A DNA stretch of 64,000 nt from Gelidibacter maritimus (GTDB lineage: Bacteria; Bacteroidota; Bacteroidia; Flavobacteriales; Flavobacteriaceae): NCBI RefSeq assembly GCF_014062315.1, contig NZ_JACGLT010000001.1:248001-312000 (forward strand). Reading direction: 5' to 3'. A program made the position numbers and the translations under genes. The notes below the pieces were generated by a model. It did not search any database, was not told the DNA's origin, and was given only the letters and a program-made list of their open reading frames with translations. Every line of letters starts with the position of its first letter. Position 1 is the first letter of the stretch. This document shows positions 10,127 to 64,000 of the stretch, piece by piece.

Positions 10127-10153
10127 AACCGTTGAGATTAAAAACACCTCGAT

Positions 10154-10675: not shown

Positions 10676-10698
10676 ATAATAATCGGAAATAAACCTCC

Positions 10699-12134: not shown

Positions 12135-12257
12135 TCATACAATACTCTTATTTATTCTATTAGGACTAAGCTGATGCATGTCATTGATATTACCCGTTAT
12201 TCAATTTAAATTAGCATTAGAAAAAAATAACTTATCAATTACTTAAAAACTTAAATT

Positions 12258-12896: not shown

Positions 12897-13006
12897 TAAG
12901 TAATTTCCATTAAAATAAATTCATCCAAAGCACACTTATCAGTGATGCAATCAAAGAATTCTATTTTAGGACAATAATTGACTGTGCAAACCTTAAAAAA
13001 TCAGAT

Positions 13007-13468: not shown

Positions 13469-13480
13469 GCAACATCAAAT

Positions 13481-15208
13481 ATGAAACCATCCATTTTCAT
13501 TATTTTTATAATGACCCTATTTTTTAACTGCAAAGACAGCGAAAACGCAGATATAGACAATACAAATACTTCTCAAATTTCTCAGCTATTTTATAATGGA
13601 GATATTATTACAATGGCATCAGATCAAGCAGAATATGCTGAAGCAGTTGTTGAGGAATATGGCAAGATTGTTTTTGTTGGAAGTCAGAAAGATGCCGAAT
13701 CAAAATATGGAAATGCCAAAAAAATTGACCTTAGCGGAAAAACCCTATTACCAGGCTTTATCGATCCGCACAGTCACTTTGGGATGGTATCCAATACAAT
13801 GGGGCAGGTTGATCTTAATCCGGAGCCAGTTGGAACAGTGGTCAATATTAACGACATTTTAAAGACATTAGAAACGTTCAAGAAAGAACGTAACATTCCA
13901 GACGGCGAATGGATTTTTGGTTGGGGTTATGACGATGGTCAGTTGGCTGAAAATCGCCATCCTACCAAAAGAGACATCGATAAAGTATTACCAAACAATC
14001 CGGTATATTTACAGCATACCAGTGGACACATGGGTGTTGCCAACAGTTTGGCGCTTGAAAAACTGAATGTCAATTCTGAAAGTAAGAATCCCGAAGGTGG
14101 CAACATCGAGCGTTTTCCCAATTCAAAAGAGCCAACGGGATTGGTTCAAGAGACTGCCATGTACCCTTTTGTAGGCAATATGTTGGAGATCCTGGCGAAA
14201 GATCAGGAAACTTTTTTTGATACAACACAAGAGTACTATGCGTCCAATGGAATCACTACGGCACAAGATGGCATGACGGATAGGAATACCATTCGGTTTA
14301 TTCAGTCGCAAGCCGATGCGGGAAAATTAACTATCGATTTGATTTCACTGGCAGGTTATGCTGAATTGGACAGCAACGTCAAAGACAGTACGTTGCATTT
14401 CAAGAACTACAAAAACGGATTTAAAGTTCAAGGCACAAAAATCGTAGCCGATGGATCGCCACAAGGTAAAACAGCATATTTCACCGAGCCCTATCTCACT
14501 GAAGTTCCGGGTTGCCAGGATGATTGTAAAGGGCTGCCCAGTTTATCTCAAGAAACTATTAACACTTTGTTTCTTAAAGCATACGAACACGATAACCAAT
14601 TATTCATTCATTGCAATGGCGATGCCACAATAGATATGATTATTGAAGCCCATGAAAATGCCTGTAAGCAATTGAACCAGCCTTTGGACAAAGACCGGAG
14701 AACCATACTCATTCATGCTCAATTTGCCCGTGCTGATCAGCTGGAAACGTTTGTGAAATACAAGATGGAACCTTCATTTTTTACGAATCACGCCTTTTTT
14801 TGGGGCGATGCCCACGTAAAGAATTTAGGAAAGAAAAGAGCGGCATTTTTAAGTCCGATGGTTTCTGCCAAGAAATTAGGTTTAAGGCCCACCAACCATT
14901 CTGATGCAACGGTAACGCCCATTGCTCCGCTTTTTACTGTTTGGTCTGCGGTCAACCGTATATCACGTTCAGGTGCCGTCATTGGTGAAGCTGAGAAAGC
15001 TACGCCTTACTTGGCTCTGCAGGCTATTACAAGTAATGCAGCCTATGAGTTTTTTGAAGAAGATTTAAAAGGTTCGTTGTCTGACGGTAAACTGGCGGAT
15101 TTTGTGATTTTAGATAAAAATCCTCTAAAAATAGAACCTATGGAAATCAAAAACATTCAGGTTTTAGAAACAATAAAAGAAGGTAAAACAATATTTAAGA
15201 AGGAATAG
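13481..15208 (+). CDS. YtcJ-like amidohydrolase, predicted lipoprotein
   Basis: 575 residues. The N-terminus is a lipoprotein signal (FIMTLFFNCKDSE), so the enzyme is probably tethered in the periplasm or on the surface. The amidohydrolase core shows TLLPGFIDPHSHFG (metal-binding HxH, near residue 95), FIHCNGDATID, ILIHAQFAR and TNHSDATVTP (catalytic Asp), with a late GSLSDGKLADFVILDKNPL segment closing the beta-sandwich. It belongs to the YtcJ/NfdA-like group that cleaves amide or formamide bonds; the substrate is unknown. It follows the GNAT gene by 12 bp. Confidence 0.85.
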   Translation: MKPSIFIIFIMTLFFNCKDSENADIDNTNTSQISQLFYNGDIITMASDQAEYAEAVVEEYGKIVFVGSQKDAESKYGNAKKIDLSGKTLLPGFIDPHSHFGMVSNTMGQVDLNPEPVGTVVNINDILKTLETFKKERNIPDGEWIFGWGYDDGQLAENRHPTKRDIDKVLPNNPVYLQHTSGHMGVANSLALEKLNVNSESKNPEGGNIERFPNSKEPTGLVQETAMYPFVGNMLEILAKDQETFFDTTQEYYASNGITTAQDGMTDRNTIRFIQSQADAGKLTIDLISLAGYAELDSNVKDSTLHFKNYKNGFKVQGTKIVADGSPQGKTAYFTEPYLTEVPGCQDDCKGLPSLSQETINTLFLKAYEHDNQLFIHCNGDATIDMIIEAHENACKQLNQPLDKDRRTILIHAQFARADQLETFVKYKMEPSFFTNHAFFWGDAHVKNLGKKRAAFLSPMVSAKKLGLRPTNHSDATVTPIAPLFTVWSAVNRISRSGAVIGEAEKATPYLALQAITSNAAYEFFEEDLKGSLSDGKLADFVILDKNPLKIEPMEIKNIQVLETIKEGKTIFKKE

Positions 15209-15386
15209 AATTGGGCTTTAAAGTGGTTATTCGGCGCTATAGTATGCAACAAGACGAATAATAAAAGTACAATTTAAAAGTATGGCTTCAAGGTTTTGAA
15301 TACCCTGCAAGAATTAAGATTATGCAGAATGGAAAATCAATTGTCATATTCAAATAGACAACAACATTAAACAATAAATATATATT

Positions 15387-16160
15387 ATGGAGATATCAAA
15401 ACTATTTGACTTAAAAGGAAAAACCGCCATAGTTACAGGCGGGGCTAACGGAATCGGTAAAGCAACAGCCATTTTATTGGCAAGACACGGTGCGAATATT
15501 TCCATCGGCGATTTCAATTTGGAAGATGCCAAAAAAACAGTTCAAGAAATTGAAGCACTAGGTGTTAAAGCGATTGCAGTGGCTTGTAATGTCTTAAAAG
15601 ACGACAATTTAGTAAACCTTATAGAGACTACGGTAAAAGAATTGGGCGGCATCCACATTTTGATCAATAATGCTGGCGGGGGAGGCGGCGGACGTGAAAA
15701 TCCGTTCAAAATTTCTGTTGATGATATCAAACGCGATTATGATTTGAATGTGTTCAGTGGTTGGAGGTTGTGTCAATTGGCAGTGCCGCACATGAAAAAG
15801 GAAGGCTATGGCTCTATTGTATTTACAACTTCAATGTCAAGCGTAAATAAAAGCCCAAACATGAGTGGCTATGGCGGGTCAAAAGCAGCAGTAAATCATA
15901 CAGTTGCCAACTTAGCACACGATTTTGGACCTGAAGTGCGTATCAACGCCGTTGGTCCAGGAGCAACGCGGACAGCAGCTTTAGAAAGTGTTTTGACACC
16001 AGAAATTGAAGCCACCATGTTGAAACATACGCCAATTAAACGTTTGGGAACGGCCGATGATATTGCTGGAGCTATGTTGTATTTTGCAGCACCAATTTCG
16101 GAGTGGGTGAGTGGTCAAACACTTTTTGTGAATGGCGGTGGAGAGCAAACTTTAGAGTAA
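15387..16160 (+). CDS. SDR-family oxidoreductase (7-alpha-HSDH/FabG-like)
   Basis: 257 residues, classical SDR. Cofactor loop TGGANGIGKA (16-25), Asp after beta-2 (IGDFN; NAD-preferring), NNAGGGGGG, catalytic Ser in TTSMSSVN, YGGSKAA (Tyr/Lys), and VGPGATRTAAL. Overall it resembles 7-alpha-hydroxysteroid dehydrogenase/FabG-like enzymes, but the substrate is not predictable. Single gene. Confidence 0.85.
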   Translation: MEISKLFDLKGKTAIVTGGANGIGKATAILLARHGANISIGDFNLEDAKKTVQEIEALGVKAIAVACNVLKDDNLVNLIETTVKELGGIHILINNAGGGGGGRENPFKISVDDIKRDYDLNVFSGWRLCQLAVPHMKKEGYGSIVFTTSMSSVNKSPNMSGYGGSKAAVNHTVANLAHDFGPEVRINAVGPGATRTAALESVLTPEIEATMLKHTPIKRLGTADDIAGAMLYFAAPISEWVSGQTLFVNGGGEQTLE

Positions 16161-16382
16161 TTATAGCAATCAATTTATATAAGATTGCAGTAGTTTCAAT
16201 GTTGAAACCTCGCTATATTTGCCGCTGTCTAAAAATGTGAGATTTCCTATTTTATAAATTTTGCTGATATCGGATATGTCAATGTTAGAGGCTAAGTAGA
16301 TGGCTAGCTATAATGGACTTTTGAAGAATCAATGACTACTACAAAACTCACGATTGAATTCAGATTTTAAAGTTGTTGGCCC

Positions 16383-17285
16383 ATGGGAAAAGTATTAAAC
16401 AATCGTTGGTTTCTTTTCATTATCATCTCCCTCACCTGGGGAAGTTCCTTCATTTTGGTAAAAAAGTCTTTACTCGGGTTTTCGCCTTATGAGATTGGCG
16501 CCATTCGGGTGGCTATTTCTGGATTGTTACTTAGTTTTATTGGCCTACCGGCTATTTTTAAAATGCCCCGAAAAACTTTGTTTTGGGTGATTATTGCAGG
16601 ATTCTTCGGTAATTTTTTACCCATGTTTCTATTTCCAATAGCGCAACAGAAGGTGAGTAGCTCATTGGCGGGAATTTTAGACGCCTTGTTTCCTATGTTC
16701 GTCTTAGCTTTTGGATTTCTGCTTTTTGGAATAAAAAGTAGATGGTCTCAAGTATTGGGTGCCGTCATAGGTTTTTTGGGAGCAGCAAGTCTTATTTATT
16801 TTTCTGAGGCCAATACCGACAGTTCACAATTTTGGTATGCCATGATTGTGGTCTTGGCAGGGGCTTCTTATGGAGTGAATGCCTTATTGATAAAGGAGAA
16901 AATCCCTAACTTGTCTTCCATCAAATTAACTGCTGCCGTATTTACGTTTTGGGCCATTCCTTCTATAGTCGTATTATTTTTTACGGACCTGTTCCAAAAT
17001 TTTGAATGGACACCCGAGCGGACCGAAGCCATGAGCTATCTCGGATTTTTAAGCATTTTCGGAACTGCGGTGGCCATGTCTTTATATTATAAACTCATTC
17101 AAAACACATCGCCAGTTTTTGCGAGTTCAGTGAGTTATGTTCTGCCCATTGTAGCCGTAATCTGGGGCGTCTTGGATGGTGAGAAGTTCACGTTTTGGTA
17201 TCTCATTGGTGCTGTACTAATTGCCATCGGTATTTATCTTATTCGCGAAAAGAAAAAAAATCCATTCTTGCCACCTCCGAAATAA
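16383..17285 (+). CDS. EamA/DMT-family transporter
   Basis: 300 residues with ten membrane segments in two EamA repeats (about 8-140 and 150-290): ISLTWGSSFILVKKSL at the start and SYVLPIVAVIWGVLDGE in the second repeat, the typical EamA PxxxxxxG-E region. It is likely an exporter of amino acids or small metabolites. Single gene; a 450-bp gap follows. Confidence 0.9.
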   Translation: MGKVLNNRWFLFIIISLTWGSSFILVKKSLLGFSPYEIGAIRVAISGLLLSFIGLPAIFKMPRKTLFWVIIAGFFGNFLPMFLFPIAQQKVSSSLAGILDALFPMFVLAFGFLLFGIKSRWSQVLGAVIGFLGAASLIYFSEANTDSSQFWYAMIVVLAGASYGVNALLIKEKIPNLSSIKLTAAVFTFWAIPSIVVLFFTDLFQNFEWTPERTEAMSYLGFLSIFGTAVAMSLYYKLIQNTSPVFASSVSYVLPIVAVIWGVLDGEKFTFWYLIGAVLIAIGIYLIREKKKNPFLPPPK

Positions 17286-19147
<1,862 letters not shown>

Positions 19148-19186
19148 GTCCTACAGGCACTTTAAGACAATAAACTAATATTAAAC

Positions 19187-19230
19187 AGACCTCACAGTAT
19201 GCCGATCAAACCGGAACTGTGAGGTCTTTT
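19187..19230 (+). terminator. Rho-independent terminator after tmm
   Basis: A 12-bp perfect stem AGACCTCACAGT (19187-19198) with 19216-19227, a 17-nt loop and a following run of seven T. It closes the tmm transcript. Confidence 0.9.
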
Positions 19231-19297
19231 TTTATTTGAATTCATCTTAAGATAAAAAAATATCTTAATTTAACCATATAAATGTCGTCTCTACAAT

Positions 19298-20749
19298 ATG
19301 AATTGGATAATATTTGCAGAAATTGCTTACGCACTTTTAGTAATTATCGTTATTTTAAGAGTGCTACTTGATACGCGGAGTAGCACAAAAGCATTGGCCT
19401 ATATCCTTTTTATCATCTTTGTTCCGTTTATCGGAATGATATTTTATTTTTCTGTTGGCATCAATTACCGCAAGCGAAAGCTGTATTCAAAAAAGATTGT
19501 TGACGATGAGCCGTTTCGAAAAAGTATTAAGGAGCGTATGAATATTTATTCGGAATCTATAAGTAATTCCGGATTGGTAGCATCAGAATATCAGAATCTT
19601 TCTGAATTTATCCTTCGTTCAGGATTTAGTCCGCTCACGGCAAATAACAAAGTGAAACTACTGGTTAATGGAGAGGAAAAATTCCCAGAATTATTAAAAG
19701 CCTTAGAAAATGCGAAATCGCACATTCATATAGAGTATTATATTTATGAAGACGACATTACAGGAAACGCGGTGGCAGACGTTTTGATTAAAAAAGCGCG
19801 AGAAGGTGTAGAAGTACGTTTTATGTATGATGATTTTGGTAGTCGTCTTGGTAAAGCCTTCATCCAGAAATTGGAAGATGCGGGTGTTCAAACCGTTCCA
19901 TTTTATAAAATTATCTGGTATGCTTTTGCCAACCGACTCAATTATCGGAATCATCGGAAAATAATAATTATTGATGGCACGGTCGGATTTATTGGAGGCA
20001 TTAATATGAGTGATAGGTATCGGAATGATTTTCAGACAGACAATCACTTATATTGGCGTGACACCCATTTGATGATTGAGGGACAGGCAACCGCTTATTT
20101 GCAGTATTTATTTTTATGCGATTGGAATTTTTGTAGTCCAATGCGTTTTGACTACAGTAAGGTTTATTTTCCTGACCAAACCAAACATGAAATAATAGAC
20201 AATGATGTAGTACAGATTGCTGCTTCAGGTCCGGATAGTCCACAGCCCGTCATTTTCTATTCGTTATTGGAGGCCATTGGCTCAGCTAAGAAAAGAATTT
20301 ATATTGCAAGTCCGTATTTCATTCCAGGTGAAAGTTTAATGGATGTCTTAATCATTGCTGTTCAGAGCGGTTTAGACGTTAAAATTATAATTCCTGGAAA
20401 ATCGGATTCTAAGATGGTCGATGCCGCAGCACGGGCTTACTATACCGAATTGCTTCAGTTTGGCGCTAAAATTTATAAATACAACAAAGGGTTTATACAC
20501 GCAAAAACGATGGTTATTGATGATAATTTAGCTATCGTCGGATCGGCCAACATGGATTACAGAAGTTTTGATCTCAATTTTGAAGTCAATGCGATGGTTT
20601 ACAGCAAGGAGGTAACGAAACAGCTTACTGCAGTATTTGATGAAGATTTGAATGATTCAGAACTCATCGATGCGGAAGCGTGGCTCAGACGTCCCAAATA
20701 CATGAAATTATGGGAACGGATGGTGCGATTATTATCACCTTTTCTTTAA
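19298..20749 (+). CDS. cls: Cardiolipin synthase (PLD superfamily)
   Basis: 483 residues. Two N-terminal membrane segments (about 1-20 and 35-55) precede two phospholipase D domains, each with an HKD motif: NHRKIIIIDGTVGFIGG near residue 220 and IHAKTMVIDDNLAIVGSANM near residue 402. Length and layout match bacterial cardiolipin synthase A (about 480 aa), which joins two phosphatidylglycerols at the inner membrane. Single gene behind the tmm terminator. Confidence 0.92.
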   Translation: MNWIIFAEIAYALLVIIVILRVLLDTRSSTKALAYILFIIFVPFIGMIFYFSVGINYRKRKLYSKKIVDDEPFRKSIKERMNIYSESISNSGLVASEYQNLSEFILRSGFSPLTANNKVKLLVNGEEKFPELLKALENAKSHIHIEYYIYEDDITGNAVADVLIKKAREGVEVRFMYDDFGSRLGKAFIQKLEDAGVQTVPFYKIIWYAFANRLNYRNHRKIIIIDGTVGFIGGINMSDRYRNDFQTDNHLYWRDTHLMIEGQATAYLQYLFLCDWNFCSPMRFDYSKVYFPDQTKHEIIDNDVVQIAASGPDSPQPVIFYSLLEAIGSAKKRIYIASPYFIPGESLMDVLIIAVQSGLDVKIIIPGKSDSKMVDAAARAYYTELLQFGAKIYKYNKGFIHAKTMVIDDNLAIVGSANMDYRSFDLNFEVNAMVYSKEVTKQLTAVFDEDLNDSELIDAEAWLRRPKYMKLWERMVRLLSPFL

Positions 20750-50985: not shown

Positions 50986-52317
50986 TCAGTCTTTAAATTC
51001 TTCTATCGCATCGCTTAAATCATAAACTGTAACACCTTGCATTTCGTTCTCAAGGATACTACTTCCCGCTGCACTTCGATAGCCACCTGCACAATGCACA
51101 ACTATAGGCTTATCGGTAGGGATCTTACTTGCGGTGTCGCGCAGGTCATAGAGTGGATGCTCAAGCGCTTTTTTGAAAAACTTACCGTCTTCTATCTCAC
51201 TTTGATTCCTGATGTCCACAATAGTATAGTTGTCTGGATTCTTTTTAAAATCTGCCAAATCTAACGTCTTAGTTTTTACCAAATTTTCATCTGAAAGCGT
51301 AATGACCTTAATCACCTGCTTTTCGTAACCTATCTTGGCCAATCGGTTTAAAAGCTTGTCCTTGTTTTCTTTATTGTCGATGACCAAAGTAAATTTTTCT
51401 TTTGGTGCAACAATAGAGCCGATCCACGTTTCAAATTTTGCCGTATCAGAGTCCGCTTGAATGTTAATGCTTCCTTTTAAATGTCCTTTCTTAAATGAGG
51501 CTTCATCTCTCATGTCAATAATGAGACCCGTAGCCGTTGTGTTTTCTTCAAAAGGAATCTTATCTAGGGTTGGATCTAAATCATCCGCTCCAGCCTTATT
51601 GATGTCAACATTAAATCCAAAATAAGAAGGAATAAAAGGCTGACCGTCGAGTAAGGTATTCATGAATTGCTCTTTGGATTGGTCTTTAAAGGCCCAATTG
51701 CCCATACGTTCATCGCCCAAAGTACTACTGGCGGCTTCACTTAGGTTTTTTCCACAGAGTGAACCGGCACCATGAGCAGGATATACAACCGTGTCATCTG
51801 GTAAATCATTAAATTTAGTGGTCATGGTATCGAACATCATTTCCGCCAACTCTTCGCGTTTCGCGGTCATATTACCAACGCTTTCACGTAAATCCGGACG
51901 CCCAACATCTCCAATAAACAGAGTATCACCAGTAAACATTGCGGTTTTATCACCTTCTGTAGCAACTATCGTTATACTGTCTGGAGAGTGTCCCGGTGTA
52001 TTGATGGCCTTCAGCGTAATCTTGCCCAAACTGATAGTATCGCCGTCATCAAAAGATTTGTGAGGATAGTCCGCACCTAATTTTTCGCTGTTGTAAATCG
52101 TGGCTCCAGTGTCTTTATGAATCTCAAGATGTGAGCTCACGAAGTCGGCATGTGGATGTGTTTGGATGATTGCTGAGATTTTGGCGTTATTGGTTTTTGC
52201 AAAATCATAATATTGCTGTGGATCACGTTCTGGATCAATAACCGCCATCTTGCCATCACTAATTATGGCGTAGGAATAGTGTGAAAGGGGTTTGTATTCA
52301 AATTGTTTGATATTCAT
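50986..52317 (-). CDS. MBL-fold hydrolase with two rhodanese domains (persulfide dioxygenase-like)
   Basis: 443 residues. Residues about 1-240 are a metallo-beta-lactamase fold with QTHPHADFVSSHLEI and MFTGDTLFIGDVGRPDL, the pattern of ETHE1/Blh-type persulfide dioxygenases. Two rhodanese domains follow (about 255-345 and 355-443). Only the last has the active Cys (VVHCAGGYRSAAG); the middle one reads VIDNKENKDK at that place and is probably structural. The enzyme likely oxidises glutathione-type or other persulfides to sulfite, in the cytoplasm. It is 40 bp behind the methyltransferase gene, one operon. Confidence 0.88.
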   Translation of the reverse strand: MNIKQFEYKPLSHYSYAIISDGKMAVIDPERDPQQYYDFAKTNNAKISAIIQTHPHADFVSSHLEIHKDTGATIYNSEKLGADYPHKSFDDGDTISLGKITLKAINTPGHSPDSITIVATEGDKTAMFTGDTLFIGDVGRPDLRESVGNMTAKREELAEMMFDTMTTKFNDLPDDTVVYPAHGAGSLCGKNLSEAASSTLGDERMGNWAFKDQSKEQFMNTLLDGQPFIPSYFGFNVDINKAGADDLDPTLDKIPFEENTTATGLIIDMRDEASFKKGHLKGSINIQADSDTAKFETWIGSIVAPKEKFTLVIDNKENKDKLLNRLAKIGYEKQVIKVITLSDENLVKTKTLDLADFKKNPDNYTIVDIRNQSEIEDGKFFKKALEHPLYDLRDTASKIPTDKPIVVHCAGGYRSAAGSSILENEMQGVTVYDLSDAIEEFKD

Positions 52318-53261: not shown

Positions 53262-54026
53262 TCAAAATAACAATTTAAGTTGCTCTCTTGTTGGCGCAGG
53301 TAGGAGTGTGATTTTTTCTAAATTAGAAAGGTCTTCAGTAACCGATAGAGCACCAATATAGTCTGGATTTAATTGGAAGCTAAGAATAGTAATTACTTTA
53401 TAATTGCTAAATAATGATGAGGGTAATGAATGGAGACCATCTAAAACATGAATTTTCGAAATATTATCGTCAATTCCTTTTCCAACCGCTTTTACCACGG
53501 CTTCCTTACGTGTCCAGAATTTATAAAAAGAAAGATGTTTGTCACTATGAACGGTGATGGTATTTATTTCTTTCTGATTGAAAACATGTTTTAAGATATC
53601 GTCATAATTAAAACCTCTATTAATAAATTCAATATCAATACCTATCTGGCTTTTTCCTATAGCAATAAGTGCATAAGCTTCTGCGTGGCTAACATTAAAA
53701 AAGACGGAGGGATGTGAAGGTAAATATGGCTTTTTGTTTATATCGACCTTGAGATTGATTTCGCCAATGTCTACCACAATATGTTTAGCTAAAAGAAATT
53801 TCAGAAGTGCTCTACAGATAACAAATCTATTTTTATCTTTTGTAAAATGATATCGATTGGCCCGATTACATTCGGAGTGAGACAAAAGACCCATTAAATC
53901 AGGAACTAAGTCTTGAAGTTTTGATAACTCAATCTTATAAAGTTTTATGCCATGATCCGCTTCCATAGTATGGTTGGAATCAGGAATAACGGATTCAATC
54001 GTTTTACAATTGATCGTGCTATACAC
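53262..54026 (-). CDS. 4'-Phosphopantetheinyl transferase (Sfp type)
   Basis: 254 residues. The conserved IGIDIEFINR (Mg2+-binding Asp) and FYKFWTRKEAVVKAVGKG (W-x-x-K-E-A) motifs and the Sfp-length second half are present. It transfers phosphopantetheine from CoA to serines of carrier domains. The start overlaps the NRPS stop by 8 bp, so the enzyme is made with, and very likely activates, the three carrier domains seen in this operon (Ser at GGTSL, GLDSL and GGHSV). Confidence 0.9.
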   Translation of the reverse strand: MYSTINCKTIESVIPDSNHTMEADHGIKLYKIELSKLQDLVPDLMGLLSHSECNRANRYHFTKDKNRFVICRALLKFLLAKHIVVDIGEINLKVDINKKPYLPSHPSVFFNVSHAEAYALIAIGKSQIGIDIEFINRGFNYDDILKHVFNQKEINTITVHSDKHLSFYKFWTRKEAVVKAVGKGIDDNISKIHVLDGLHSLPSSLFSNYKVITILSFQLNPDYIGALSVTEDLSNLEKITLLPAPTREQLKLLF

Positions 54027-57000
54027 TTTCTAAGGTTTTATTGTCCAGCACCTCTTGAAGTTTTTCTGCTAAAACTTTGACATGGGGTTCGTCAAACATA
54101 TCCACATGGTTGCCCGGGACCATGTGTTTTCGAATACCTCTAAGACCCATTTTTTTCCATCCTAATAAATCATGGTCATGGACAAAATTAATTTCCTCCA
54201 TGGCTCTAAATAAATCGATTACAAAATCTTGGGGAGTAATCGTATAGGCGTTAGTGGCTTTTTGGTGATTTTCTTCCATTTTGTAGGGCACGTTGAATTG
54301 CATTTCGTACTGTTTCTCCTTGCCATGTTTTAACCTTAAAAATAATCCAGAGATTTGGATTTTCAACAATTCTTTTCGTCGTATAAAATGTTTTTTGCTC
54401 GCAAACATATTAAAACTTAAGTACACAACTTTTCCCATTTGAAATAGGTTTGAGAGTAACTTTTTCTTAACAGGATTAGTATAATAGTAAGACGGGTAAA
54501 CATAGGTGTCAAATTGTGCAACAATTGTAACTACCTTCCCTTGGGCTCTTAATTGTCTGGCCATTTCAAAGGCAACGATCCCACCGTAAGAGAATCCCCC
54601 TAAGGCATAAGGTCCGTTCGGATTTGATGCAAGAATTTCAGATATATAATCTGCTGCCATTTGATCGATTGAATCGTGTGGTTCATCTACACCACTTAAT
54701 CCTCTGGATTGGAGACCGAAAACGGGTTGGTCTTTATCTAAATGATGAGCCAGGGCATTGAACATTAAAACATTATGGTTGGCGCCATGAACCACATATA
54801 AAGCTGGTTTTGTACCTTCTGGTTTAAGTGGAACCAAGGAGTCCCATACAATGAATTCACGATCCATGTATGCAGCCAATTCTTTGACCGTAGGATGTTT
54901 GAGTAATGCTACCAAGGGTAATCTATTTCCAGTTACTTTCTCTATTTTGGCCATTACTTGAACCCCAACAACAGAATGTCCCCCAAGTTCGAAAAAGTCA
55001 CTGCGACTATCAATCTTGTCAATTTTGAGGCATTCCTCCCATATGGAAGTGATTATTTTTTCTGATTCGGTAACAGGTGCACTAAAACCTAACTGTTCAT
55101 CTTTGGAGGGGAGGTTCTGCAACAATGCTTTTCGGTCGATTTTTCCACTAAGCGTTGTCGGGAAAGCTTTGACTAAAATAAATTGATTCGGAATCATGTG
55201 GGCAGGAAGTTGATCTTTTAAGACGTCTTTCCAAACCTTCACTTGATTTGTATTCAGTTTATCTAAATCTGAAGCTATGACATTTGCGATTAATTGATCC
55301 TCATTGAGCAAAACTACTGCCGACTGAATGTGGTCCAAGGCATCGAGCGCTTGTTCTATTTCTTCCAGTTCAATACGCTGACCTCTAATTTTAACCTGAT
55401 GGTCTATGCGTCCCAAACAATGTACATCGCCTGAAGGAAGTAATCTGGCCAAATCGCCTGTGCGGTATAGGGTAGGGCCTAAATCAGTTTCGATAGGGTT
55501 TTTTATGAATTTTTCAGCAGTTAAATCGTCGCGCTTCCAATAGCCTTGAGCAACACCGTCACCGGCAATGCAAAGTTCCCCAATTTTATTAGGTGAAACC
55601 AATCGATTGTGCTCATCAACAACATAAAGTTGGGTATTGGCCATGGGATGGCCGATGGTAATGCTAGTGTCTTCCTTGGATATCTTCTTCATCGCAGACC
55701 AAATAGTGGTTTCGGTAGGTCCATACATATTCCAAAGCTCAGTCACTTGTTTCAGAATGCTTTTTGCTAAAACCAACGGCAGTGCCTCTCCTGTTGAGAT
55801 GGCTCTAAGGGGTAAAGGTTCATCCCATCCTGAGTATAATAACATTTGCCAAGTGGCAGGAGTAGCCTGCATCATGGTAATTTTCTCCTTCTTCATCACA
55901 TCGAGCAACAATCGGGTATCCTTGGATGTTTCCTCATTGGTGATGATCAATTTAGCACCAATTAAGAGCGGGGCAAACAGCTCTACCATGGCAATATCAA
56001 ATGAGATTGTAGTGATTGAAATTAAGGTATCTGAAGCTTTAATCCCCGGTTTTTTCAAGACACTAAATAAAAGATTAACCAGGTTTTTATGGGTAATCGG
56101 TACGCCTTTGGGCTTTCCGGTAGAGCCTGACGTATAAAGGATATAAACAATATTTTCAACGTCTACCTTTTCTTTTAAAGGCGTTATAGGATATCTTGCT
56201 AAATTTGAAAATATATTTTCTAAGAGCAAGAGTTTTGTGTTAGAATCTAATGCAGAAGAAAATTCTTTTGTGGTTATCGTGAATTTAACTTCTGAATCCT
56301 GCAACATAAATGCCAAGCGTTTGTTTGGATAGCTAGGGTCTAGAGGAAGATATGCGGCACCACATTCCATAATGGCTATTAAAGTGACAATCAGCTCAAT
56401 GGAACGCGGCAAAGAAACAGCAACGAAATCGCCGTTTTCAACTCCCTGTTCCTTCAAATAATGAGCCACTTGATGCACCTGGCGTTCCAATTCACCATAG
56501 GAAATTTCCGCATCGCCAAATTTTAGAGCTGTTCTTGAAGGATTGGCCTGAGCTTGTTTTAGAAGTAATTCGTGTAAAGGTTGTTTTGGATAAGAAGCAA
56601 CGGTATTGTTCAATTCAGCATACTCTGAGGCATCTATTTTAATAATATCACCAATCTTAACATCAGGATTGGCTACGATGCTTTGAACAACTTTTTCAAA
56701 AGAAACCATCATCTCTTTTATAGATTCAGGCTTAAATATATTTGAATTATAGGACCACTCTAACACAAGAGCATCGGCAGAACCTGAAGCATTTAGGAAA
56801 ATTTCAAAGGTTTCGTACGCTCTTGGATTACTTTTCAATTGATATTCCAAACCTTCAAATGACACGCCATCATCCAGACCCATATCGATATTGAATACCA
56901 CTGGAACCAACGGAACTCTAGATGGGTCTCTTGCTATGGACAGCTTTTGAAGTAATTCTCCAAAACTAAATTTCTGATGTTCATAGGCGTCAAAAAGCTG

Positions 57001-58014
57001 AGGTTTACGTTGTTTGAGATAGTCCTTAAAAGAAAGGGTCGTATCAATTTTACTTCGTAATGGTAGTAAATTTACACAATGACCAACCATTTGAATTTTA
57101 CCACTTGCTGCTTGATCGGCTGATGGGAGACCTAAAACAATGTCCTCTTGTCCGGTTTGTGTATAGAGAAAAATCTCGAAAGTGGATAGGAGGGTAGTCA
57201 CTAAACTGGATCCAGATTTAAGCCCGGTTTTCTTCAGTGCATTTACCAATGCCATCGACATTGGTAAATCTAAACGCTCACTTTTGAATGTTCTGTACTG
57301 GGGCCGTGGAAAATCTGTAGGTAAAGTAAGTTGCGGTACTGTACCCTTGAATTTATCAAGCCAAAAATTCTCGTTTTTGGTATGCTGAGGACTTGCCAAA
57401 TAAGCTTGCTGCTCATCCGCATAGGCGGAAAAACTTTCAGGTTTGGGTAGCGTGTTTGGCTTTTTGAGGACATTGGCAGAATAAAGACCTCCCAATTCTT
57501 GAAGCATAATCCCTATTGACCATCCGTCGCAAATAATATGATGTCCGGTGAGCACCAATTGGTGTTCCGTCTCAGATAACTTAAGAAGTCCAACTTTCAA
57601 TAAAGGACCTTTTACCAAATCAAAGACATAATTAGCCATTGCTGATAAATAATCTTTTATGGCCTTGTTTTTTTCGGCATCATTAAATTGTGAAAAGTCT
57701 TGATTATCGATGGTGATGGCCAACTTCTTAAAGATGGTCATGAATCGGCCATCCGTACTGAACACAGCTCTCAATGCTTCATGGCGACCGACCAAGGTCT
57801 GCACTGCATCATTGAATGCTGATTTATCAAGATCGCCTTTTAAAATAAGGCTTACCGATTCATTATAGGCTCTGTTGGCATCATCATCTCCTAATTTACA
57901 AGCTATCCATATTTCCGCCTGCGGTTGGGTGGTGTAGATGACGCGCTCTATTTCGGGTCCTGCAAAAGGATTGAAATTAGGTTGGTTATCTATGATAATT
58001 GTAGACTCTTTCAT
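54019..58014 (-). CDS. Nonribosomal peptide synthetase, C-A-PCP-TE
   Basis: 1331 residues. Condensation domain about 25-460 with HHIICDG (158-164). Adenylation domain about 480-965: A3 YTSGSTGKPKGV (627-638), A4 SFDIAMVELF, A5 NMYGPTET, A7 YRTGDL, A10 LSGKIDRKAL. PCP about 980-1050 with attachment Ser1014 (GGHSV). Thioesterase about 1065-1325 with nucleophile Ser1142 (GGFSYGG) and a late GNHVDM His. No epimerase or methylation domain. It adds the last residue and releases the product. 92 bp behind the hybrid gene, overlapping the Sfp gene. Confidence 0.93.
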   Translation of the reverse strand: MKESTIIIDNQPNFNPFAGPEIERVIYTTQPQAEIWIACKLGDDDANRAYNESVSLILKGDLDKSAFNDAVQTLVGRHEALRAVFSTDGRFMTIFKKLAITIDNQDFSQFNDAEKNKAIKDYLSAMANYVFDLVKGPLLKVGLLKLSETEHQLVLTGHHIICDGWSIGIMLQELGGLYSANVLKKPNTLPKPESFSAYADEQQAYLASPQHTKNENFWLDKFKGTVPQLTLPTDFPRPQYRTFKSERLDLPMSMALVNALKKTGLKSGSSLVTTLLSTFEIFLYTQTGQEDIVLGLPSADQAASGKIQMVGHCVNLLPLRSKIDTTLSFKDYLKQRKPQLFDAYEHQKFSFGELLQKLSIARDPSRVPLVPVVFNIDMGLDDGVSFEGLEYQLKSNPRAYETFEIFLNASGSADALVLEWSYNSNIFKPESIKEMMVSFEKVVQSIVANPDVKIGDIIKIDASEYAELNNTVASYPKQPLHELLLKQAQANPSRTALKFGDAEISYGELERQVHQVAHYLKEQGVENGDFVAVSLPRSIELIVTLIAIMECGAAYLPLDPSYPNKRLAFMLQDSEVKFTITTKEFSSALDSNTKLLLLENIFSNLARYPITPLKEKVDVENIVYILYTSGSTGKPKGVPITHKNLVNLLFSVLKKPGIKASDTLISITTISFDIAMVELFAPLLIGAKLIITNEETSKDTRLLLDVMKKEKITMMQATPATWQMLLYSGWDEPLPLRAISTGEALPLVLAKSILKQVTELWNMYGPTETTIWSAMKKISKEDTSITIGHPMANTQLYVVDEHNRLVSPNKIGELCIAGDGVAQGYWKRDDLTAEKFIKNPIETDLGPTLYRTGDLARLLPSGDVHCLGRIDHQVKIRGQRIELEEIEQALDALDHIQSAVVLLNEDQLIANVIASDLDKLNTNQVKVWKDVLKDQLPAHMIPNQFILVKAFPTTLSGKIDRKALLQNLPSKDEQLGFSAPVTESEKIITSIWEECLKIDKIDSRSDFFELGGHSVVGVQVMAKIEKVTGNRLPLVALLKHPTVKELAAYMDREFIVWDSLVPLKPEGTKPALYVVHGANHNVLMFNALAHHLDKDQPVFGLQSRGLSGVDEPHDSIDQMAADYISEILASNPNGPYALGGFSYGGIVAFEMARQLRAQGKVVTIVAQFDTYVYPSYYYTNPVKKKLLSNLFQMGKVVYLSFNMFASKKHFIRRKELLKIQISGLFLRLKHGKEKQYEMQFNVPYKMEENHQKATNAYTITPQDFVIDLFRAMEEINFVHDHDLLGWKKMGLRGIRKHMVPGNHVDMFDEPHVKVLAEKLQEVLDNKTLESV

Positions 58015-58106: not shown

Positions 58107-61100
58107 CTATAATTCAATTTTTTTATAGGCTCCTTCATTATTTTCATCATCAATATACCATGCTGGATTTCCCGATTCGTCCATACCTAATTTAGCGCCC
58201 GGTTGTGGAGGCTGGTTCAATTCTTTGGAGTTCTTTGTACTTGAGGTGGTTTTATCATTTGAATTGGATTGAAATACACCTGCTTTTTGAAGTTCATGGA
58301 TACTTTCCTTGAACGCGTTTATGATATAAGTAACATCCTCTTCTGTGTAGGCTGTGGTCAAGAAACAAGGAAAACCATCCCAAACATGCACTCCTTTAAG
58401 TCGCATGAGTACAAAAACCAATTCGCCATAAGGCACCTCCTCTTTAAAGGACAATCTCCACAAGGACCTAAAGTGATTGATTTCAAGTGGTAACTCATGA
58501 TTTTTAAAGAATGAATTCATTTCTGAGGCCAATCGGTCGGTCATTCTTGATAAATCATCCTGAAGCTTTGGCCCGTTTTCTTTTAAATGGATCAATGAGG
58601 CTTTTGCAGATGCTAATGCCAACGGATGGCGTACGAATGTCCCAGCGAAATAAGTGACGCCGACTTCTGGATAGGAATCATCTCCAAATTGCCAGTGCCC
58701 ACCATCAAGCGCATCCATATATTTTTTGCTACCCGCTATAGCTCCAATAGATAGTCCTCCACCGATTACCTTTCCGTAAGTGGCGATGTCTGCTTTAATA
58801 TCGTACATGCCTTGAATTCCTTGTGGATGCATGCGGAACCCCGTGATGACCTCGTCAAAAATAAAGGCGGTATTTGAAGCTTTTGTGATGTTTCGAACTT
58901 CTCGTAAGAATTCTACAGGTTGAAACTCTGGTCTTCTACTCTGAACAGGCTCCACAAGTACGGCGGCCAATTCGTGGGCTCTTTCTCGGATAATTTGTAG
59001 ACTTTCTTCAGTACCATAATCCAAAATCAACATGTTTTGGACTGATTCTGGCATAATTCCTGGTGCAGCAGGAAAGGATTTCTTTATACGAGAACCTCTT
59101 ACCAAAACCTCATCGGTTATGCCATGATAGGATTTTGAAAAAGCAACAATCAATGATTTGCCTGTTACTGTCCGTGCAATTCGCATGGCGCCCAATACTG
59201 CTTCTGAGCCCGTATTGCAAAGGGCTGATCGGTCGTGATGCGTTAATTCGCAAAGCAATTCGCAAACTTCACCAGCCAAAGGATGTTGTGGACCAACTTC
59301 ATAACCAAGTTCAATTTGATTGTGCAATGCTTCTTTAATAAAATCAGGTTGATGACCAAATAAGCAGGAGCCGAAACCATTTAAGGCATCAATATATTCG
59401 TTGCCGTCAATATCCCAGAGTTTATTCCCCGAAGATTTTCCAACCACTATCGGGTAGACCAGCTCTTTGGTTAATGGTTTGAAACCAGAAACCACCCTTG
59501 GATCAGCCATATGCGATCGGTGTTTTTGAGCGTAGGCTTTGCTATTCGCGGTTTTGTTATTGTAATTTGTTGTCAAATTATTCAAGAAAGCTTTTTGGCT
59601 ATCATTGACATCAGAGGCATTCTTTTCTATTTTAGGCGAAGCCCCAAATGGCTTTTGATGTTCTTTTTTTTCATCCTCAGATAACACTTCAGTGGGTGTA
59701 CTTTTGGTTGTATTGGCTGGAACTGGGCCAGACATTCTGTCCGTCTGAACCATAGGCTTTTCTTGCTGCTGCGTTGGCGATGGTGGAGCATAAGTACCAT
59801 TTCCTTGAAGTAATTCTATTTGCTTACCCAATAATTGCAATTGCTGTGCAATCAGATTTAAAGCTGGATTACCATTTGTGCTATTAGAATTACTATTAAA
59901 ATTTTGAGTCTGCAAATGAGACTGTGCTTGCGAATGCGAATGAGGTGTGAAAGTAGATGGATTGTTATTAGTAAAATCGGCCACTGGGCTGATAATTGGT
60001 GTTGGTGCAAGTGTTTCTTTAGGAAGCACTTGGTCCAAATGCTCTGCTAATAAATTCGGAGTGCTCAATTCCTCATTTAATTCTCGAAAAGTAATTGGGG
60101 TATTAAAATCATTTCTAAACGTGATGGCCATTTGGGTTAAAACCAAAGAGTCAAGGCCAAGTTCAAGAAAGTTATGATCATGCTCGGACGCTTCCAGTTC
60201 TATTCCTGATGTGTCCATGATGATATCTGAAATTTTTTCCAGAATCTTAGTTTTTCTTTGTGGTTGTGCAACAGTATCCATATGGTATTGTGATTGTATA
60301 GATTGATTGTTATTTGTTTGTTCAGATTGGTAATTATTGGCTTCTGTGGTTGGCGCCTTCATGTTGGCGTTATGAGGTACCATTGGTGGATCTACCCAAC
60401 ATAATTTACGGTCGAAAACATATGCTGGTAAAGCGATTCTTTGACGGGATTGACCTTTATAAAAAGCTTGCCAATCGGGTTCAATGCCTTTTAGCCAAAG
60501 CTGACCTAATGCGGAAAGCAGGGTGTGATAGGAGTTTTGATCAGCGTTTGGTGCCACTAAGCTCGCGATTGAAGTAGCTGATTTGGCTTTCTTTTTTTGT
60601 TGTGATAAAGTAGCTAAAGCACGACCGGGCCCCACTTCCAAGAGCAGCAGATCGTCTAAGTCTAGGGCAGTATCCATTGCATCCGAAAAGCGAACCGTGG
60701 CACGTAAATGATCGGTCCAATATTTCGGATCTGTAGCTTCCGAATCGCTGAGCCATGTGCCAGTAACCGTAGATATAAGAGGAAGGCGTGGAATGTTCAA
60801 AGCCACCTTTCTAACTTCAGCTTCAAATGCTTCTAAGACAGGATCCATCATATTGGAATGAAATGCGTGACTCGTTAAAAGTAAACGATTGGGTATTTCC
60901 TTTGCCTCTAAAATTTTCGCAAACTCTGCAATTGGAGCATCTTCACCTGAAATCACGCATAATAGATCGGAATTGACCGCTGCAACAGATAGGGTCTTTG
61001 GAACCATTGGGGCTAAACTCTCGTATGGTGTCCTCACGGAAAGCATACTGCCTCCAGGAAGACTACTTACCAATCTTCCACGAACGGCAACTAATAATAA

Positions 61101-64000
61101 TGCGTCCTTTAAGCTAAATATTCCAGCCAAGTGGGCGGCTACAAATTCGCCAATACTATGGCCGCATAGAAGGGTGGGTTTAATCCCCCAATTCATCCAT
61201 AGTTGAGAAAGCGCATACTCTATAACAAATAATGCTGGTTGTGTATATTGGGTATCTTTTAACTGATCTTCAGCTTCAACAGAATCTTTCTCAGGATAAA
61301 TAATATTACGAATATCATATTTAAATGCCTCCTGTAGAATTTTAGCACACGCATCTACGGCGTCACGGAATACAGATTCCTGCTCATAAAGTGCTTTCCC
61401 CATTTGTAAATATTGTGCCCCTTGGCCAGGAAAAAGAAATGCCAGATTTTGAGGAATGGATTTTAACTCAGATGTCTTTACCGTTGATCCATTTTCAGAT
61501 ATGAGCTGTTTCACGGCGTCTTCTGAATCTGTGGCTAAAATAAAGCGTCGTTTGTTAAAGGAATCTCTTGTAGCGCTCAGTGAATAGGCCACATCTGCCA
61601 ATTTAATGTCATTTGAAGCGTTTATAAAATTACCAAGCGCCTCTTGATACCCATCAAGACTATTCTTGCTTTTTGCCGACCAAGTTAGAATCTGCAAGGG
61701 CTTGCTTTCACCTGAAGGTGTTTGTTTATTAACAAATTCTTCTACTACGACATGTACATTGGTGCCTCCAACCCCAAATGAACTAATTCCGGCCCGACGG
61801 ATTCCTTCAGAATCCCAGTCGCTAAGCACGTTATTGACATAAAATGGACTGTTTGCAAAATCGATAGCTGGATTAGGACTTGTAAAACCTAATGATGGGG
61901 GAATTTGTTGGTGGTTCATTGCTAGAATAGTCTTTATGAATCCAGCTGCACCAGCCGCAGCCGTTAAATGCCCCATATTACTTTTTATTGAGCCAATGGC
62001 ACAATAATTCTTATTTGGCTGTTCGCCAAAAGCATCATGTAGGCCTTCCATCTCAATTGGGTCACCAATAGGAGTGGCTGTACCATGCGTTTCAATATAA
62101 CTAATATTGGATGGCGCTAAATTTGCATCCTGAAGCGCACGGTAGATAGCTTCTGATTGCCCTTCAACACTTGGAGCCGTAAAACTGCCTTTGCCACCAC
62201 CATCGTTACTAATTCCGACCCCTTTTATAATGCCATAGATATGATCGCCATCCGCTTTTGCTGCTTCTAAACTTTTGAGGAGGACAACGCCACATCCATC
62301 ACTAAATACAGTTCCTTTTCCATCTTTGTCAAATGATCGGCAATGGCCATCAGGACTTAACATAGAACCTTCTTGATAAAGATGACCACTACGTATTGGA
62401 ACAGTCACGCTAGACCCACCGGCAATTGCTACATCACATTGTCCATTTCTAATAGCTTCAGTTGCCTGCGATATGGCAAGCAACGAAGTTGAACACGCAG
62501 AATGTACACTGACAGCAGGTCCCTTTAGATTTAAGTGATAAGCAGTTCTTGTGGCGATATAATCCTTTTCGTTGAGGGTACTCGCTTGGAAATCGCCTAC
62601 CTGATTCAATAATTCTGGGTTGGGCAGAATGTTATTCTTATAATAGGTATTCATGCCAGTGCCTGCATACACGCCAACACTTCCATCGTAATGTTTGGGT
62701 AGGTGTCCCGATTGCTCGAGGACTTCCCAAGCCACTTCTAAAAATAGACGTTGTTGCGGATCCATGACCGAAGCAACCTTCGGATTTAATCCAAAAAATG
62801 CAGGATCAAATTCTGGAGCTGATGGGATAATGCCTCGCGCTCTGACGTATAAAGGATCATTCCGTAAATCTTCAGGAATAGCACGATCTAATTCTTCAGG
62901 AGAGAAAAATGAGATGGTCTCTTTTCCATTTTTAAGAACCTCCCACAATTCTTGGATGGAATTTGCTCCTGGAAATCTGCCGGCCATCCCAATAACAGCT
63001 ACATCTTTTGATATTCCGTTTTTAGTATTGTTTTTATATGTTTTTTTTGTTTTCGTACTCTTATTAGGTTCTAAATAGGCTGAGATTTCAGCAATTCTTG
63101 GAAATTGGTAGAGTTTTGTTACAGGCAATTTATAGTCGTAATCATTTAATAAAACAGCTACTAGTTTCTGTGCCAAGAGGGATGTTCCGCCCAATTCAAA
63201 AAAGTTGTCATCAATACCTATTTCCGGAATGTGCAATAAATCAACCCATACCTTGGTCAAATTTTTCTGAATTTTAGTAGTTGCTGCTTTGTATGGAGGC
63301 GCGGAATTGGGTCTGCTATATTCTGGTGCGGGTAAGCTTCTTTTGTCAATCTTACCACTTGAAGTTTTTGGAAATTCTTCAACTAATATAAAATAAGACG
63401 GCATCATGTAGTCCGGTAATATTTCAGAAACTTTCTTACGGATGTCAACAATATCTAAGTTGTCATGATTAGATTGCATATAAGCAACTAATTGCGATTG
63501 ACCGCCCAAGTGATTGGACGCAATGACAACCGTCTGGAGAATACCCGACAATGAGTTAATGGCCGATTCTATTTCTGCCAATTCAATTCTATGGCCACTA
63601 ATTTTGACCTGATCATCTTTCCGTCCAAGGAACTCTATATTTCCGTCAGGTAGGTATTTAGCAATATCACCCGTCCGATATATCCGATCATACTTACCGT
63701 CAGGAGATTTCCAACCAACAAATTTTTCATCTGTTAATTCTTGTTTGTTCAAATAACCTTCCGCTAAACACTCGCCAGCAATGCACAACTCGCCAATGTT
63801 CCCATCCGATAAGACTTGTTGTTCTGAATCAAGGATATATAAACCGGTATTACTTATAGCCTTACCAATGGATGGCAGAGTTGGCCAATCGGCAGGATTT
63901 CCGTCTAATTTTAATTCTGAAACCACATGGCATTCTGTAGGTCCATATTGGTTGTAAAGTATACAGGTTTTTAATTTAGTAAATAAATTGATGACCTGAG
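58107..64000 (-). CDS. Hybrid NRPS-PKS with in-line aminotransferase, 5' part outside window
   Basis: The frame is open through the right edge; the GTG at 63926 is not the start, since QYGPTE (A5 motif) lies upstream of it. Residues are counted from that GTG: rest of an adenylation domain 1-200 (YRTGD, SSGKIDKRSL); PCP 215-285 with Ser249 (GGTSL); ketosynthase 308-735 with Cys478 (HSACSTS), His614 and His653; acyltransferase 825-1125 with Ser924 (GHSIGE) and HAFH (1020-1023), the malonyl-type motif; ACP 1225-1300 with Ser1260 (GLDSL); Q/N-rich linker to 1440; class III aminotransferase 1445-1875 with PLP Lys1719 (ATYGKVIGGG); tail to 1939. No ketoreductase. The module converts a beta-ketoacyl to a beta-aminoacyl unit. 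Confidence 0.93.
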   Translation of the reverse strand, partial: QVINLFTKLKTCILYNQYGPTECHVVSELKLDGNPADWPTLPSIGKAISNTGLYILDSEQQVLSDGNIGELCIAGECLAEGYLNKQELTDEKFVGWKSPDGKYDRIYRTGDIAKYLPDGNIEFLGRKDDQVKISGHRIELAEIESAINSLSGILQTVVIASNHLGGQSQLVAYMQSNHDNLDIVDIRKKVSEILPDYMMPSYFILVEEFPKTSSGKIDKRSLPAPEYSRPNSAPPYKAATTKIQKNLTKVWVDLLHIPEIGIDDNFFELGGTSLLAQKLVAVLLNDYDYKLPVTKLYQFPRIAEISAYLEPNKSTKTKKTYKNNTKNGISKDVAVIGMAGRFPGANSIQELWEVLKNGKETISFFSPEELDRAIPEDLRNDPLYVRARGIIPSAPEFDPAFFGLNPKVASVMDPQQRLFLEVAWEVLEQSGHLPKHYDGSVGVYAGTGMNTYYKNNILPNPELLNQVGDFQASTLNEKDYIATRTAYHLNLKGPAVSVHSACSTSLLAISQATEAIRNGQCDVAIAGGSSVTVPIRSGHLYQEGSMLSPDGHCRSFDKDGKGTVFSDGCGVVLLKSLEAAKADGDHIYGIIKGVGISNDGGGKGSFTAPSVEGQSEAIYRALQDANLAPSNISYIETHGTATPIGDPIEMEGLHDAFGEQPNKNYCAIGSIKSNMGHLTAAAGAAGFIKTILAMNHQQIPPSLGFTSPNPAIDFANSPFYVNNVLSDWDSEGIRRAGISSFGVGGTNVHVVVEEFVNKQTPSGESKPLQILTWSAKSKNSLDGYQEALGNFINASNDIKLADVAYSLSATRDSFNKRRFILATDSEDAVKQLISENGSTVKTSELKSIPQNLAFLFPGQGAQYLQMGKALYEQESVFRDAVDACAKILQEAFKYDIRNIIYPEKDSVEAEDQLKDTQYTQPALFVIEYALSQLWMNWGIKPTLLCGHSIGEFVAAHLAGIFSLKDALLLVAVRGRLVSSLPGGSMLSVRTPYESLAPMVPKTLSVAAVNSDLLCVISGEDAPIAEFAKILEAKEIPNRLLLTSHAFHSNMMDPVLEAFEAEVRKVALNIPRLPLISTVTGTWLSDSEATDPKYWTDHLRATVRFSDAMDTALDLDDLLLLEVGPGRALATLSQQKKKAKSATSIASLVAPNADQNSYHTLLSALGQLWLKGIEPDWQAFYKGQSRQRIALPAYVFDRKLCWVDPPMVPHNANMKAPTTEANNYQSEQTNNNQSIQSQYHMDTVAQPQRKTKILEKISDIIMDTSGIELEASEHDHNFLELGLDSLVLTQMAITFRNDFNTPITFRELNEELSTPNLLAEHLDQVLPKETLAPTPIISPVADFTNNNPSTFTPHSHSQAQSHLQTQNFNSNSNSTNGNPALNLIAQQLQLLGKQIELLQGNGTYAPPSPTQQQEKPMVQTDRMSGPVPANTTKSTPTEVLSEDEKKEHQKPFGASPKIEKNASDVNDSQKAFLNNLTTNYNNKTANSKAYAQKHRSHMADPRVVSGFKPLTKELVYPIVVGKSSGNKLWDIDGNEYIDALNGFGSCLFGHQPDFIKEALHNQIELGYEVGPQHPLAGEVCELLCELTHHDRSALCNTGSEAVLGAMRIARTVTGKSLIVAFSKSYHGITDEVLVRGSRIKKSFPAAPGIMPESVQNMLILDYGTEESLQIIRERAHELAAVLVEPVQSRRPEFQPVEFLREVRNITKASNTAFIFDEVITGFRMHPQGIQGMYDIKADIATYGKVIGGGLSIGAIAGSKKYMDALDGGHWQFGDDSYPEVGVTYFAGTFVRHPLALASAKASLIHLKENGPKLQDDLSRMTDRLASEMNSFFKNHELPLEINHFRSLWRLSFKEEVPYGELVFVLMRLKGVHVWDGFPCFLTTAYTEEDVTYIINAFKESIHELQKAGVFQSNSNDKTTSSTKNSKELNQPPQPGAKLGMDESGNPAWYIDDENNEGAYKKIEL

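Follow-up and report, generated by a model that had tools for sequence, protein, structure and literature searches.

A compact NRPS-PKS-NRPS assembly line of Gelidibacter maritimus predicted to join a 3,4-diamino acid to a glycine-like residue, with starter domains exchanged among its relatives

The hybrid NRPS-PKS gene at the right edge of the analysed stretch of Gelidibacter maritimus DNA (the window, 64,000 nucleotides) is best explained as part of a self-contained NRPS-PKS-NRPS assembly line, which, as judged from sequence, is likely to make a 3,4-diamino acid unit joined to a glycine-like residue. As the starter adenylation domain (A1) keeps its first pocket Asp and has a proline-like pocket, the predicted unit is a vicinal diamine and not a plain beta-amino acid. 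In this respect, the original prediction of a plain beta-amino unit as in iturin and microcystin was corrected.

The domains of the gene, their order and the catalytic residues were read directly (Table 1). In the ORF list, the frame inside the window is only a part of the gene and is open at the window edge. The genome sequence gives the whole gene as L002:10107-16829 (-), which encodes 2240 aa and equals window 58107..64829. Its start lies 829 bases beyond the right window edge, and the completed gene brought no new module. Pfam matches gave the order A-PCP-KS-AT-ACP-AMT, namely, AMP-binding (12-360), its C-terminal subdomain, PCP, ketoacyl-synt (608-982), Acyl_transf_1, a second PP-binding stretch and Aminotran_3, while no ketoreductase family was matched in the 2240-aa protein, including the region between KS and AMT. 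Thus, the single-protein arrangement without ketoreductase that had been read from the partial gene also holds for the complete one. By alignment, the catalytic residues in Table 1 and AT Ser1225 were present. Across the 28 hybrid rows aligned, the carrier serines, the KS Cys and His, and the AT Ser and HAFH were invariant, and the AMT lysine was found in 26, the other two (L058 and L059) being without the entire AMT. The HAFH of the built-in AT is presumably the malonyl-type motif, and chain extension by malonate was retained as a reading. As full-length orthologues are present in several genera, an artefact or gene fragment was ruled out.

Table 1. Coordinates of the assembly line features and neighbouring genes (window positions unless a locus is named).
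Feature	Coordinates	Strand	Basis
Hybrid NRPS-PKS gene, window part	58107..64000	-	ORF + Pfam
A1 starter adenylation core, window part (core residues 12-410; begins past window edge)	63600..64000	-	Pfam; pocket DVQLMAQVV, proline-like
A1 C-terminal subdomain (Asub), residues 419-493	63351..63575	-	Pfam
PCP1, residues 524-586, Ser550	63072..63260	-	Pfam + alignment
KS, residues 608-1035, Cys779/His915/His954	61725..63008	-	Pfam + alignment
Cis AT, residues 1131-1450, GHSIG + HAFH	60480..61439	-	Pfam + alignment
ACP, residues ~1531-1596, Ser1561	60042..60239	-	Pfam + alignment
AMT, MycA type, Pfam match 1792-2147, Lys2020	58389..59456	-	Pfam, PDB comparison, alignment
C-A-PCP-TE termination module, 1331 aa	54019..58014	-	ORF + Pfam
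Condensation domain, HHIICDG	56611..57948	-	Pfam + motif
A2 adenylation domain, pocket DIVQITMIW, Gly-like	55141..56559	-	Pfam, PDB comparison, pocket alignment
PCP2, LGGHS	54868..55053	-	Pfam + motif
Type I thioesterase, GFSYGG + GNH	54058..54801	-	Pfam + motif
4'-Phosphopantetheinyl transferase (PPTase), ACPS superfamily, HetI/Sfp-like	53262..54026	-	ORF + family search
Membrane protein, without Pfam family	L003:4191-5030 = window-equivalent 65191-66030	-	Structure model
SAM methyltransferase	L003:5119-5982 = window-equivalent 66119-66982	-	Pfam
JmjC/Cupin_8 oxygenase genes between hybrid and C-A-PCP-TE	L005:16661-17554, L014:16633-17511, L047:11145-12080, L048:8087-8977		

The expected class III aminotransferase was confirmed and assigned to the MycA kind by PDB comparison. 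Its nearest solved structure by far was the mycosubtilin MycA AMT (6kfm, E 3.5e-115, 388 bits), followed by glutamate-1-semialdehyde aminomutase (1e-44, 156 bits). According to the accessible part of PMC3870968, the MycA AMT is functionally characterised and aminates a PKS chain, taking the amine from Gln. Thus, beta-amination is the natural reading for the AMT of the hybrid. The Aminotran_3 domain stands in cis after the ACP, and the C domain follows on the next protein in the window and on the same protein in L081. The AMT was also among the best conserved parts, with 70-76% identity to 11 AMT-bearing relatives of the other starter types. This conservation and the lysine kept in every AMT-bearing row make it very improbable that the AMT is bypassed or inactive on the chain, in which case a 4-amino-3-oxo-acyl peptide would arise, with possible cyclisation to a tetramic-acid-like or another ring, even though four relatives without an Aminotran_3 domain (L058, L059, L082 and L083) retain KS, AT, ACP and the C-A-PCP-TE protein. 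A trans-acting AMT was also considered for these four genomes, but only distant class III enzymes were found (best 32-33% identity) and no MycA-like AMT was found elsewhere in them. Therefore, amination is not essential to the family. With beta-amination as the preferred reading for the AMT-bearing members, the four relatives, whose starter codes are DAEHIGKVT, Asn-like and, twice, Gly-like, should make beta-keto products and serve as natural controls. In another Flavobacteriaceae genome, a KS-ACP-AMT-C protein of other lineage (L060:14888-19786) has an AMT approximately 41% identical.

That the starter is selected by an A domain, and is not a fatty acid, was upheld by the TIGR01733 amino acid adenylation domain, for which the hybrid scores 346.9 bits against a cut-off of 317.4, and by Asp235, the first letter of the pocket code. 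In A domains, Asp235 anchors the alpha-amino group. It was kept in 36/36 starter A domains read (from 37 hybrids, L028 being cut by a contig end). When the pocket region of A1 was compared with the PDB, tyrocidine synthetase 2 (1.2e-24) and gramicidin S synthetase 2 (8.4e-23) were matched, with the next match at 1.2e-9; the matched parts (TycB1 and GrsB1) are, we take it, proline modules. The pocket code of proline A domains is DVQLIAHVVK. Seven of the nine positions read in A1 are as in DVQLIAHVV and those at 299 and 322 differ, the tenth letter, Lys, being added by convention and seen by eye in the SGKIDK motif of A1. At position 278, the MAFFT alignment sets A1 and A2 one column apart; the residue taken was the third one ahead of the conserved Pro, giving Leu for A1, as in the proline code, and Gln for A2. 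Gln322 is kept in 17/17 Pro-like rows and Met299 in 16/17; as the two changes are kept in these rows, a proline analogue is possible. It is quite likely that A1 activates an alpha-amino acid, followed by beta-amination, and reasonably likely that proline in particular is its substrate.

A non-amino starter (an alpha-keto, aryl or other acid), with a plain beta-amino acid peptide as the product, would have a precedent in the cyanobacterial beta-amino polyketide lines, which begin with alpha-keto, aryl or fatty acids according to the accessible part of PMC13252402, a preprint. However, the Asp235 kept in all starter A domains read and the closeness of the A1 pocket to proline A domains make such a starter improbable, and the keto-acid loading modules described there carry a KR, which is absent in the hybrid.

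The C-A-PCP-TE gene lies directly downstream of the hybrid, and thus the line ends at that protein. The HHxxxD(G/A) and GxSxGG motifs were found in all 28 C-A-PCP-TE-like proteins examined, the LGG(H/D/N/T)S string in 20/28 and GNH in 21/28, the rest of which would need a looser pattern. The PPTase frame shares 8 bases with the end of the C-A-PCP-TE gene. Upstream of the hybrid on the same strand lie a membrane protein and then a methyltransferase, and nothing of an assembly line. As the only genomic match to the condensation family lies in the gene that immediately follows the hybrid, the assembly line is self-contained. The original prediction had named an inactive KS or AMT and an additional upstream module as grounds for giving it up; neither was found, as the catalytic residues are in place by alignment and the upstream genes and the sole condensation match show no such module.

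The A2 pocket region was nearest in the PDB to 4zxh and 5u89, both of which we take to be Gly-activating A domains. The pocket code of glycine A domains is DILQLG(M/V/L)(I/V)WK, and A2 has Thr at 301 where the Gly-type code has Gly. The 28 C-A-PCP-TE-like proteins, counting that of the window, gave 30 A domains that were read. The exact DILQLG(M/V)(I/V)W was found in 12 of these and two more were one or two letters off, while Thr301 was found in nine, that of the window among them, and other codes in seven, two of them Asn-like. The Thr301 implies that the substrate of A2 may have changed, and Gly or a near relative is slightly favoured as its substrate. The same logic could also give another structure, in which the amino acid of A1 is not proline (e.g., pipecolate or an oxidised or hydroxylated proline) or that of A2 is not Gly. 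This possibility, which overlaps with the best explanation, agrees with the changed positions 299 and 322 of A1, with Thr301 in A2 and with the JmjC/Cupin_8 oxygenase gene near 7 of the 27 loci inspected, though that gene is absent from the neighbourhood in the own genome. It is nevertheless rather unlikely, as most A1 pocket positions equal the Pro code and the two best solved relatives of A1 are presumably proline domains.

For the preferred reading, we infer each substrate and reaction as follows. A1 would adenylate an alpha-amino acid, most likely L-proline, and load PCP1. The built-in AT would place malonyl on the ACP, and the KS would condense the starter with it to give a 4-amino-3-oxo-acyl-ACP. 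With no KR, the MycA-type AMT (PLP; donor probably Gln, as for MycA) would turn the 3-keto group into an amine, giving a 3,4-diaminoacyl-ACP. As the starter bears an alpha-nitrogen and the beta-keto group is aminated after one malonate, two neighbouring nitrogens are expected; for a proline starter, the unit would be 3-amino-3-(pyrrolidin-2-yl)propanoyl. On the next protein, the C domain would couple the diamino unit to the Gly-like residue picked by A2, the TE would free the dipeptide in linear or ring-closed form, and the neighbouring PPTase would arm the carriers. For Pro + malonyl + Gly, the linear product was calculated by hand as C9H17N3O3 ([M+H]+ 216.134) and the cyclised product as C9H15N3O2 ([M+H]+ 198.124).

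The model of the membrane protein (pLDDT 82.7) matched the Rce1 CAAX protease in the PDB (TM 0.67, E 5e-5) and, more weakly, SpdC (E 0.012), and its GEVVWVSY motif is invariant in 12 aligned members. A CPBP-type fold with an immunity or processing role is possible from this model. The methyltransferase model matched many SAM methyltransferases generically, none being clearly closest. A metallophore reading from the neighbours was rejected, as no receptor or metal-transport family was found in four large neighbouring genes (L006, L013, L048 and L052). A promoter scan gave a result no better than shuffled sequence. On both sides of the cluster, MBL-fold/rhodanese-type genes that look similar in their translations by eye were observed (window 50986-52317 (-) and L003:9761-11170 (-)).

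Kinship and conservation were likewise read directly. The named full-length relatives number 11, the closest named being Gelidibacter pelagius at 88%. In Flavobacteriaceae, an orthologue was found in 17/397 genomes, own counted, of which 14 are full length, one is cut by a contig end (G270) and two are without AMT (G246 and G357); this count leaves out 15 further genomes matching in part only, at 32-42% identity. In the Bacteroidota sample, 16/395 genomes had an orthologue, own counted, comprising 13 at full length (one, G618, at 43%), two without AMT and one fused, and leaving out 13 further listed genomes matching at 33-44%. Both counts are lower bounds because two candidates per genome were scored. 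In the own genus, 5/9 genomes had an orthologue, own counted. None of the 11 named loci was identical to another aligned hybrid, the highest identity being 88.6% between L004 and the window, and G777 of the own-genus set (likewise 88%) and L004 may represent one strain.

In L081 (3353-13666), the whole line is one 3437-aa protein, A-PCP-KS-AT-ACP-AMT-C-A-PCP-TE, and in L089 the protein break falls after C rather than before it, and thus the domain order proposed here is supported. A C-A-PCP-TE gene follows the hybrid in 26/27 loci inspected, four of them with one oxygenase gene between (Table 1). In L055, a partial C domain precedes A1 in the hybrid (8416-15804 (-)), which has an NRPS gene (16280-19900 (-)) upstream of it. 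Accordingly, not every relative begins its line with A1, and the beta-amination module there stands inside a longer line. Besides the oxygenase gene, a window-like methyltransferase was found near 22/27 loci, a PPTase near 20/27 and the membrane protein near 13/27; the contig of L054 ends close to the gene, so absences there mean little. In ten further loci, of which three belong to a single different Flavobacteriaceae genus and seven lie outside this family, no such methyltransferase or membrane protein was found, and a PPTase was found in eight; one of the ten, L086, had no C-A-PCP-TE gene within the stretch examined. Some relatives have extra NRPS parts (L006:16698-23981 and L012:16701-23984; L011:16640-25072), in the form of either a downstream protein of 2427 aa whose first A domain is Asn-like or a tandem pair of C-A-PCP-TE-like genes.

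Compared with the window, 13 relatives with other starters showed 27-35% identity in the A1 core, 68-80% in KS, 52-78% in AT and 70-76% in AMT, where present, while the A1 core of 13 same-starter relatives was 58-86% identical; L028, with 47% over a partial core, was put in neither group. Mean A1 core identity was 59.3% within and 32.8% between starter types (630 pairs), and the corresponding values were 73.6/70.1 for KS and 64.5/59.1 for AT (630 pairs) and 74.3/68.3 for AMT (595 pairs). A KS-AT tree of 37 rows, 36 of them labelled, was built by a quick method. L046 and L049, which pair as sisters on it, share 85% in KS, 82% in AMT and 28% in the A1 core. On this tree, the eight starter code types, which lump some codes (DAM..G takes in DIL, DAI and DPM rows), need 14 changes, the least possible being 7, and the Pro-like type alone needs 7, at least 6 of which are forced by well-supported branches. 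When A1 cores were clustered at 50/45/40% identity, 10/7/5 scaffolds were obtained, with 15/13/11 changes on the tree. As core identity is low between types, KS and AMT stay at ~70% and scaffolds change 11-15 times, it was concluded that the starter domain has been exchanged repeatedly. That every code change is an exchange was rejected: at the 45% cut-off, the four DAM..A rows fall into the Pro-like scaffold, which L075 (DAQ) joins at 40%, such codes lying on or near that scaffold (45-53% core), and L073 and L074 share 53% in the A1 core. Thus, the DAM..A and DAQ rows appear to have diverged in place.

The gap between same-type and other-type identity (9 same-type and 12 other-type rows chosen of 27) was large over residues 1-390 (up to ~50 points), 4-15 points to ~600 and, from the KS on, within ~6 points save for the ACP-AMT linker (up to 11). 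After controlling for KS and AT identity, a shared scaffold was worth 23.6 points of identity for the core, against 11.2 for the C-terminal subdomain, 8.0 for the PCP and 0.8 for the ACP control. These gains do not bear out an exchange limited to the A core with the subdomain staying; the exchanged piece thus often includes the subdomain and the PCP, partly or wholly. According to the accessible part of PMC8097286, the A core is the usual target of exchange in other NRPSs, with the subdomain left in place; exchange itself is therefore a known mode. The point of interest here is its repetition on a loading module that feeds a KS.

Considered together, the relatives give a slight preference to a Bacteroidota family of compact lines that load an alpha-amino acid directly, lengthen it with malonate and aminate the chain. 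AMT-bearing members would give vicinal diamines, often joined to a Gly-like residue, and the family would have diversified chiefly by exchange of the starter A domain (Pro-, Gly-, Asn- and Thr-like and other codes) and sometimes by AMT loss. If true, vicinal diamine amino acids, which are chemically awkward to make, would become accessible by prediction from genomes through a ten-domain line, and a small, testable product class would be added in Flavobacteriaceae, for which few products are known despite numerous NRPS-PKS clusters. The natural starter exchanges (~30% core identity, with KS and AMT at ~70-85%) are ready templates from which KS-feeding loading modules could be engineered. A role of such diamine dipeptides as metal chelators or metallo-aminopeptidase inhibitors is pure speculation.

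Among known systems, the mycosubtilin and iturin synthetases have the order carrier-KS-ACP-AMT-C, like the line described here. These synthetases (MycA and ItuA) and the hybrid share a MycA-type AMT, a beta-amine made from a beta-keto chain and a downstream NRPS. Unlike in iturin, the hybrid has an amino acid A domain, an Acyl_transf_1 in cis and just one further residue. In iturin, the starter comes from a fatty acyl ligase and malonyl transfer is performed by a separate protein, as given in the accessible part of PMC11751314. The hybrid has neither trait, as its A1 scores as an amino acid adenylation domain with Asp235 kept and its AT is built in. The McyE-type modules of microcystin and nodularin, with KS-AT-...-AMT, an AT in cis and beta-amination ahead of an NRPS module, also resemble the hybrid. 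Unlike them, the hybrid has no reductive or methyl domains, its line has two residues and its starter would bring its own alpha-nitrogen.

The cyanobacterial beta-amino polyketide lines (Athmu/Atpoa/Ahmos classes) resemble the family studied here in that their diversity lies in the starter module. Their strategies, as listed in the accessible part of PMC13252402 (2026 preprint), are an alpha-keto acid with KR, an aryl acid by CoA ligase and a fatty acid by CoA ligase, and the directly loaded alpha-amino acid predicted here is none of the three. TycB1 and GrsB1, the nearest solved relatives of the A1 pocket, belong to elongation and not loading modules, and two pocket positions differ. For the amino acid starter, the nearest functional parallel is possibly the cephabacin NRPS-PKS of Lysobacter lactamgenus, a gammaproteobacterium, in which, as we assume, arginine is lengthened by one acetate unit and joined to alanines within a beta-lactam cluster. 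Surveys of Flavobacteriaceae and Bacteroidetes, in the text available for each, count NRPS-PKS hybrids without describing the present line (PMC10734526 and PMC9248904). The former names Winogradskyella among the genera with exclusive PKS/NRPS hybrid families of their own, and the word aminotransferase is absent from its main text and from the text available for the latter. Within open-access main texts, no published description or characterised cluster was found. Thus, while the logic of the line is already known from iturin and microcystin, the starter variant predicted here from sequence appears to be new.
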